DNA of 40,122 bases from assembly GCA_017501565.1 (NCBI GenBank), contig JAFVWP010000134.1, positions 1 through 40,122 of the forward strand, given 5' to 3'. Under the pieces are notes generated by a model, which ran no database searches, was not told the origin of the DNA, and saw only the letters and a list, made by a program, of their open reading frames with translations. Position numbers and translations under genes: made by a program. Numbering within the stretch: the first letter of the stretch is position 1; every line of letters begins with the position of its first letter. Source of the DNA: Elusimicrobiaceae bacterium (GTDB lineage Bacteria > Elusimicrobiota > Elusimicrobia > Elusimicrobiales > Elusimicrobiaceae). This document shows, in pieces, positions 39,612 to 40,122 of the stretch.

Positions 39612-39642
39612 AAAAAGCCGCCGCAAGCTGGGCGGCGGCTTT
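39612..39642 (-). terminator. Terminator/attenuator-like hairpin directly before lysS
   Basis: On the minus strand AAAGCCGCCGC (39642-39632) pairs with GCGGCGGCTTT (39624-39614), loop 7 bases, followed by TTTTTC. The lysS ribosome binding site begins a few bases later. Confidence 0.75.
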
Positions 39643-39653
39643 AATAAATCTGG

Positions 39654-39671
39654 TTCCGGGACTAGGATTCG
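39654..39671 (-). repeat. Displaced copy of the tRNA-Gln 3' end (att-like)
   Basis: Eighteen bases identical to 39838-39855, the 3' end of tRNA-Gln from T-loop to discriminator. Read on the minus strand this copy is followed by CCA (39653-39651), although the intact tRNA gene lacks an encoded CCA. It lies 184 bp downstream of the intact copy. Confidence 0.85.
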
Positions 39672-39727
39672 CCTTCCGGTCGTTTTGTTGACCCAAAACG
39701 CCTGCAGGCCGGGCTCGCGGTTTTTGC
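39671..39727 (-). repeat. Dispersed repeat core, copy A
   Basis: Fifty-seven bases identical to 40066-40122. It contains the inverted repeat CGTTTT-GTTGACCC-AAAACG and the palindrome GCCTGCAGGC. The further sequence to 39837 (with a perfect GCAAGCAAA/TTTGCTTGC hairpin) may belong to the same element but cannot be compared, since copy B is cut by the window edge. Confidence 0.9.
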
Positions 39728-39837
39728 CTTTCGCCGAAAGTAACGAATATCGGCTCAAACAAAAACATCGCTACGCCTTTCTTATCCTAACGCAAGCAAA
39801 GCAGTTTGCTTGCTGTCCTAAAAACATTTTTAAATTT

Positions 39838-39908
39838 TTCCGGGACTAGGATTCGAACCTAGAATTAATGTTCCAGAGACATTCGTGTTACCATTACACC
39901 ATCCCGGA
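39838..39908 (-). tRNA. tRNA-Gln (CTG)
   Basis: Acceptor TCCGGGA / TCCCGGA, D-arm GTGTAATGGTAAC, anticodon stem AATGT/ACATT with loop CTCTGGA (anticodon CTG), T-arm CTAGG-TTCGAAT-CCTAG, discriminator A. CCA is not encoded. Its last 18 bases are repeated at 39654-39671. Confidence 0.94.
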
Positions 39909-39921
39909 TCTATACATACAT

Positions 39922-39950
39922 ATTTTAGCATTTCCGCCTAAAAGGCGCAA
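39922..39950 (-). promoter_or_regulatory. Promoter of tRNA-Gln
   Basis: TTGCGC (39950-39945), a 17-base spacer ending in TGC, and TAAAAT (39927-39922), 13 bases before the tRNA. Confidence 0.6.
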
Positions 39951-40008
39951 GAAAGAGAACAGGGTAGAATGATAAAGAACTTCACCTTAAAATTCAACTG
40001 CTATGGGC

Positions 40009-40038
40009 AAAAAATTAGCCTATCCGCAAGGGATAGGC
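40009..40038 (-). terminator. Terminator for a minus-strand transcript from beyond the right edge
   Basis: GCCTATCC (40018-40025) pairs with GGATAGGC (40031-40038). On the minus strand it is followed by TAATTTTTT. The stretch 39951-40008 shows nothing else. Confidence 0.7.
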
Positions 40039-40046
40039 CAAATTTT

Positions 40047-40065
40047 ACTGCGCCCACCGGGACTT
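40047..40065 (-). repeat. 3' remnant of a second, different tRNA
   Basis: On the minus strand CAAGTCCCGGTGGGCGCA reads like tRNA positions 56-73: the end of a T-loop, T-stem CCCGG, acceptor strand TGGGCGC and discriminator A. It is not the tRNA-Gln end. The repeat core copy B joins it at the same T-loop base as in copy A. Confidence 0.6.
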
Positions 40066-40122
40066 GCCTTCCGGTCGTTTTGTTGACCCAAAACGCCTGC
40101 AGGCCGGGCTCGCGGTTTTTGC
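40066..40122 (-). repeat. Dispersed repeat core, copy B (cut by window end)
   Basis: Identical in all 57 visible bases to 39671-39727, same orientation. It continues beyond the window. Confidence 0.9.

Follow-up and report, generated by a model that had tools for sequence, protein, structure and literature searches.

Tyrosine-integrase islands of tRNA and tmRNA genes (Islander type, PMC4383910) split a tRNA gene, restore it with a piece of their own and leave the displaced 3' fragment at their far end. The element described here does the same. However, these islands are normally much longer and require an encoded integrase (PMC4383910), whereas the present element measures about 150-200 bp, is gene-less and encodes no integrase. 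Unlike the islands, it also carries an arm antisense to its own tRNA, and it occupies dozens of different tRNAs in one lineage. The attC sites of integron cassettes show 9-11 nt of self-pairing between the cassette ends and a branched tip (PMC2727003). With these the element has in common a poorly conserved sequence but a conserved structure, self-pairing ends, a branched tip, possibly an asymmetry that chooses the strand, and tandem arrays of units. The attC-type criterion, a folded site with conserved structure and end self-pairing, is met, although recombination of a single strand remains an inference. In contrast to integron cassettes, no integron integrase or attI has been shown for the element, its target is the tRNA T-loop, its units carry no gene, and a hairpin sits inside its arm. 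CTX-type phages use the host XerC/XerD through a folded single-stranded attP. They are likewise integrase-less with a folded single-stranded site, but reliance on a host recombinase is only presumed for the element, and the phages are whole genomes that target dif rather than tRNA genes. Repeats of the REP/BIME, MITE and ERIC types are short, gene-less, palindromic and multicopy, as is the element; unlike the element, they have no tie to tRNA genes and no arms matching the host site. No description of the element was found in the open-access literature searched (closed-access papers and preprints lay outside the scope).

The window, that is, the whole stretch of 40,122 nucleotides that was analysed, spans an entire contig (C134). 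An initial annotation, made from the sequence alone, had read on its minus strand an intact tRNA-Gln, a spacer with a hairpin, a core, and CGAATCCTAGTCCCGGAA plus CCA, and had taken this for a miniature mobile element without an integrase gene. This layout held (Table 1), and the reading was supported overall: the DNA inserted at tRNA-Gln amounts to about 190 bp and contains no gene. Absent from the annotation were the antisense copy of the T-arm and acceptor in the spacer, the covarying fold, and the further copies in the genome. In the window the hairpin interrupts the antisense arm at the boundary between its acceptor and T-arm parts.

Table 1. Features of the element copies in the window (positions are those of the window).
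Feature	Position	Strand	Basis or remark
tRNA-Gln(CTG), intact	39838..39908	minus	ARAGORN
Last 18 nt of tRNA-Gln, from C56, no CCA; 3' end borne by the insertion	39838-39855	minus	empty orthologous sites
Proximal trailer AAATTTAAAAATGTTTTT, differs from native trailer	39820..39837	minus	
Acceptor-antisense segment AGGAC, precedes hairpin	39815..39819	minus	family-level permutation test
Hairpin AGCAAGCAAACTGCTTTGCTTGCGT	39790..39814	minus	loop conserved, stem variable
T-arm-antisense 'guide' TAGGATAAGAA	39779..39789	minus	complement of T-loop/T-stem, 2 mismatches here
Mobile structured core, 107 bp, two stem structures	39672..39778	minus	comparison of copies at other tRNAs
Distal copy of tRNA-Gln 3' end from C56 + CCA; the original end, displaced	39651..39671	minus	empty sites
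Native tRNA-Gln trailer and terminator, directly upstream of lysS	39612..39650	minus	nine empty congeners
Second trailer/terminator copy of tRNA-Met and first bases of element left end	40000..40048	minus	
Distal copy of tRNA-Met 3' end from C56, CAAGTCCCGGTGGGCGCA	40049..40066	minus	
Second core copy, right part, truncated by contig end	40067..40122	minus	other half on G000:C109

The direction of the insertion was established from empty sites. Nine congeners (G001, G008, G016, G020, G033, G066, G074, G076 and G080) have the tRNA-Gln/lysS locus without the element, and there the sequence reads ...CCCGGAACCAGATTTATT, or a close variant, followed by the native terminator and lysS. These sites encode CCA and GATTTATT where the window has its CCA-less proximal end, which is new (CCCGGAA, followed by an A/T-rich trailer). 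Since the distal, CCA-bearing copy is the native end of the empty sites, the insertion gave tRNA-Gln a replacement 3' end and moved the old one outward. Comparison of empty with filled loci shows a split tRNA restored, with its displaced 3' fragment at the far end, as is required of a genomic island. The window directly demonstrates the annotation's claim that such elements restore the tRNA and displace its old end, while the annotation's alternative, that CCA pointed to copying from mature tRNA, failed, the CCA copy being the ancestral gene end encoded in the empty sites. Simple target-site duplication is contradicted in the window by the unlike trailers, though it is supported at some other loci. 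Nor is the structure fixed among relatives, as it would be after old tandem decay: besides the empty tRNA-Gln/lysS sites, the tRNA-Val(CAC) locus was occupied in 12 and empty in 16 of the 28 congeners read. Two further genomes (G067 and G023) carry apparent scars at the tRNA-Gln/lysS locus.

The annotation had also reported a 57-bp core recurring without mismatch at the right edge, joined there to the 3' end of a different tRNA, with both tRNA remnants beginning at C56. All of this held except the size. The two copies match at 57 of 57 positions up to the contig end, which truncates the right-edge copy; the core itself comprises 107 bp, because identity between elements starts just past the guide (...GAA) and stops at ...GGAAGG. 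A repeat of 63 nt at 97% identity links the two copies, while the chance expectation for a 25-mer with three mismatches is 0. The different tRNA, predicted to lie beyond the edge, was found in the same genome: its end occurs at one place (G000:C109:12042-12062) and belongs to tRNA-Met. On contig C109 a tRNA-Met ending ..GGTTCAAGTCCCGGTGGGCGCA is followed by its trailer, a hairpin, the guide TTAGGGACTTGAA, the left half of the core and the contig end. The second trailer/terminator copy of tRNA-Met in the window is part of an exact 67-bp direct repeat common to both contigs. The assembly break falls inside the repeated core. Because the tRNA end and the repeat match and the core halves complement each other, we infer that the two contigs adjoin in the genome.

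Across the family, a complete element has the order tRNA(S), terminator, acceptor antisense, hairpin, T-arm antisense, core, copy of S, trailer, where S stands for the 3' part of the tRNA from C56 onward; the element measures about 150-200 bases and has no gene. In Elusimicrobia almost every copy has its junction at C56. The arm hairpin has a stem of 9-10 bp, with the loop AACTGCTT in Elusimicrobia. The antisense arm mirrors the acceptor and T-arm of the element's own host tRNA. In a permutation test on 87 elements with 24 distinct 9-mers, the T-guide 9-mer matched its own tRNA at 8.10 of 9 positions, against 5.99 (sd 0.10) when tRNAs were permuted, and the acceptor part at 4.85 of 7, against 3.69 (sd 0.09). 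The hairpin stem was considered as a further fragment of the host tRNA and rejected, its similarity not exceeding permutation. The arm of L239, a Patescibacteria copy, is a nearly complete mirror of the tRNA end plus terminator. At some Lys and Leu tRNAs, arm and right junction have both shifted from the T-loop to the tRNA 3' end, so the two travel together.

The outer parts of the element vary more. Of 62 elements, 31 have unlike proximal and distal trailers, with less than 65% identity, and in 19 the two trailers are at least 85% identical. In G001, G028, G021 and G073 a species-specific terminator stands in identical form on both sides, which reads like a target duplication. Some distal copies (Val, Ser, Met) run into the element's left end. 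The T-stem of the distal S copy is often filled with extra bases while the guide still fits the tRNA; for example, in L051, L056, L071, L078, L088 and L198, 4-13 filler bases replace the T-stem and the T-loop and acceptor parts are retained. This possibly represents filler joining or inactivation. In five copies (L048, L053, L057 and L058 of G011, and L034 of G004) a highly structured hairpin of about 290 nt lies between guide and core, with a whole-element z-score of -10. It is apparently a nested or extended form of the element. An autonomous long version was sought, and neither candidate qualified: the five extended copies hold a structured hairpin without an evident gene, and L165 is a truncated copy beside a pilin-like gene.

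The source genome holds at least five further strong copies, after tRNA-Ser(CGA), Val(CAC), Arg(CCG), Thr(TGT) and Ser(TGA), as well as weaker ones. Each strong copy is joined to a copy of its own tRNA's 3' end, so that other cores do adjoin T-loop remnants, as the annotation's reading would need. At different tRNAs the cores can be up to 98% identical (Val in G036 and Met in G030; Ser and Cys in G015), with 97% for Ser and Asp in G011, and 20 core pairs of at least 93% identity join different tRNAs. Elements at different tRNAs share sequence identity only within the core. Within a genome, cores might also be homogenised by ectopic gene conversion among resident elements. Arrays of tandem units at a spacing of about 190-220 bp are common, and the 13 genomes tested carry 5-26 copies each. 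Among Elusimicrobiota, 87 of 248 genomes and 20 of 76 genera are carriers. In Patescibacteria the first named matches were found with an exact 22-base pattern, and at least 26 of 380 genomes carry the element, as counted under strict filters by a model trained on Elusimicrobia. Seven named Patescibacteria carriers have 4-18 copies each, and 43 of 53 Patescibacteria copies examined are located less than 100 bp downstream of a tRNA. Nearly always, the family sits just 3' of tRNAs. Searches of phage and plasmid collections gave no match to the element, nor did the exact core pattern in IMG/VR. Overall, there is good support both for the existence of the family and for its mobility.

A fold model was built from six copies and evaluated on 120 matches. 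It gave 92.7% paired cells against 71.9% in shuffled controls, with both sides changing in 45 of 48 pairs, and a covariation score of 0.447 compared with 0.147 for shuffled and at most 0.093 for slid alignments. These counts lean towards the model because the alignment was fitted to it; as a further check, the hairpins were read straight from the sequence. The folding z-score of the window copy is -3.7. Counted in this direct way, G.T wobble occurs in only 4 of 771 pairs of the arm hairpins, against 6.1% in the acceptor stems and 2.5% in the T-stems of the same tRNAs (Fisher P = 4e-7, ignoring kinship, i.e. counting related sequences as independent). Scarce wobble in freely changing stems is indirect evidence, but it likely favours folded single-stranded DNA over RNA; replacement of whole stems as blocks is a possible alternative. 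An internal TTT/AAGG motif is invariant. We infer that it could be a protein-binding site. At gathering score, Rfam 15 gave no match to the element; only tRNAs and a group I intron were matched.

Candidate mobilising enzymes were surveyed in 16 element-bearing genomes. Tyrosine recombinases were present in 15; those read were by eye mostly Xer-like and in a few cases phage-like, no search specific for IntI having been made. Most carriers among the Patescibacteria (five genomes) encode only one tyrosine recombinase, and one incomplete genome shows none. RVT_1 was missing in 13 of the 16, including near-complete genomes with 17-26 copies, and with only three carriers holding it a reverse transcriptase was rejected as the mobiliser. 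Y1_Tnp was missing in 10 of the 16, and the Y1 transposase was rejected for its absence from most carriers. This enzyme, the mobiliser of REP sequences, was found in none of the eight tested carriers of the window's genus and in six of the eight others. Mobilisation in trans by a tyrosine recombinase, as the annotation had proposed, is plausible and still an inference.

The reading that we prefer is an integrase-less element resembling an integron cassette, which targets the T-loop and is served by a recombinase in trans. We give it a probability of roughly 0.45; its enzyme and its retargeting step are unproven. In this reading, a single strand comprising the tRNA 3' end, the terminator, the antisense arm with its hairpin, and the core would fold such that the tRNA 3' end pairs with the arm. 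Folding would restore the T-arm site as a duplex whose structured tip is the core; a tyrosine recombinase in trans, either the host Xer or an enzyme not yet identified, would swap a single strand with the T-loop of the tRNA, before replication completed the insertion. Tandem arrays could arise by repetition or slippage. To change from one kind of tRNA to another, the element would need its arm copied afresh from the new site or its core swapped through gene conversion. A cassette-like reaction in trans fits the crossover at C56, the self-pairing of the ends, the structured tip, the tandem units and the unlike trailers. Against it, no recombinase is linked to the elements, and the identical species-specific terminators on both sides at some loci are unexplained. 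Distal copies that run on into the element's left end also count against it. Furthermore, near-identical cores sit at different tRNAs, which a simple cassette hop alone cannot explain.

The strongest rival, which remains possible, is a target-copying insertion. Here the mobile part would be the core alone or the core plus the hairpin, joined as a hairpin cap over a T-loop break; during replication, a template switch at the palindromic terminator would reproduce the target in the two arms and yield the order S, terminator, antisense S, core, S, terminator. It is favoured by the limitation of similarity to the core at different tRNAs, by the L239 arm that mirrors a whole tRNA end and terminator, and by terminators that can be locally identical on both sides; moreover, the fit of the arm to the host tRNA follows automatically. 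On the other hand, the window trailers are unrelated, the distal one being native, and an arm hairpin with a conserved loop, unrelated to tRNA sequence, is left unexplained. To our knowledge, no enzyme performs such an insertion. The cassette-like and target-copying routes may also act together. A bolder reading, against which we lean slightly, is a class of gene-less mobile DNA without fixed ends, in which a 107-bp folded core would insert into tRNA T-loops and have the host tRNA recopied as an antisense arm at each site, thereby retargeting to any tRNA; it would be common to Elusimicrobiota and Patescibacteria and perhaps be moved by the housekeeping Xer recombinase.

An RNA-mediated route is unlikely. 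The core would then be a structured RNA, either a ribozyme or the RNA of a retroelement served by reverse transcriptase in trans, with the arm pairing to the tRNA target. The conserved multi-stem fold, the folding z-score of the window copy, the invariant internal motif and the guide-like arm speak for it, but RVT_1 is missing from most carriers, there is nearly no G.U in freely covarying stems, and the element has no Rfam match. Also doubtful is a non-selfish role, as a functional non-coding RNA or tRNA-processing element retained by the host and spread by gene conversion. The element does occur in almost all sampled congeners, at many tRNAs, and its fold is strongly conserved; however, many congeners are empty at the same tRNA, copy number varies, and there are decayed and scarred copies as well as truncated tandem ones. 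Ordinary tandem tRNA duplication followed by decay, suggested by the distal tRNA 3' fragment and the occurrence of tandem copies, is all but excluded, because one core is shared by many unrelated tRNAs in two phyla, empty sites exist, and an antisense arm is not a product of direct duplication.

The element would be among the smallest known site-specific mobile elements, using essential tRNA genes as safe landing sites and adapting to a target by mirroring it in an arm of the element. Its occurrence extends over two distant phyla, one of them the Patescibacteria with their reduced genomes and, in many cases, only one tyrosine recombinase. The list of candidates is short, and the mobilising enzyme becomes a directly testable question. 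Annotators are likely to mistake such loci for tRNA fragments.

Several copies have unusual neighbours. In L102 and L043, and also in L015 and L019, the element is joined to a gene with a T-arm end (..GGTTCAAATCCTATACTGGGCACCA) that neither ARAGORN nor Rfam recognised as a tRNA or tmRNA. One Patescibacteria copy (L236, G091:C7) is borne by a tRNA whose anticodon, according to ARAGORN, is TTA and reads a stop codon. In Kaiserbacteria (L226 and L147) the element follows a tRNA-Leu that itself holds a group I intron. At L249 (G085:C77) there is no recognised tRNA and the site is the 3' end of a possible coding sequence; the arm and the right junction there both match a TCGAAGCGC-like sequence.
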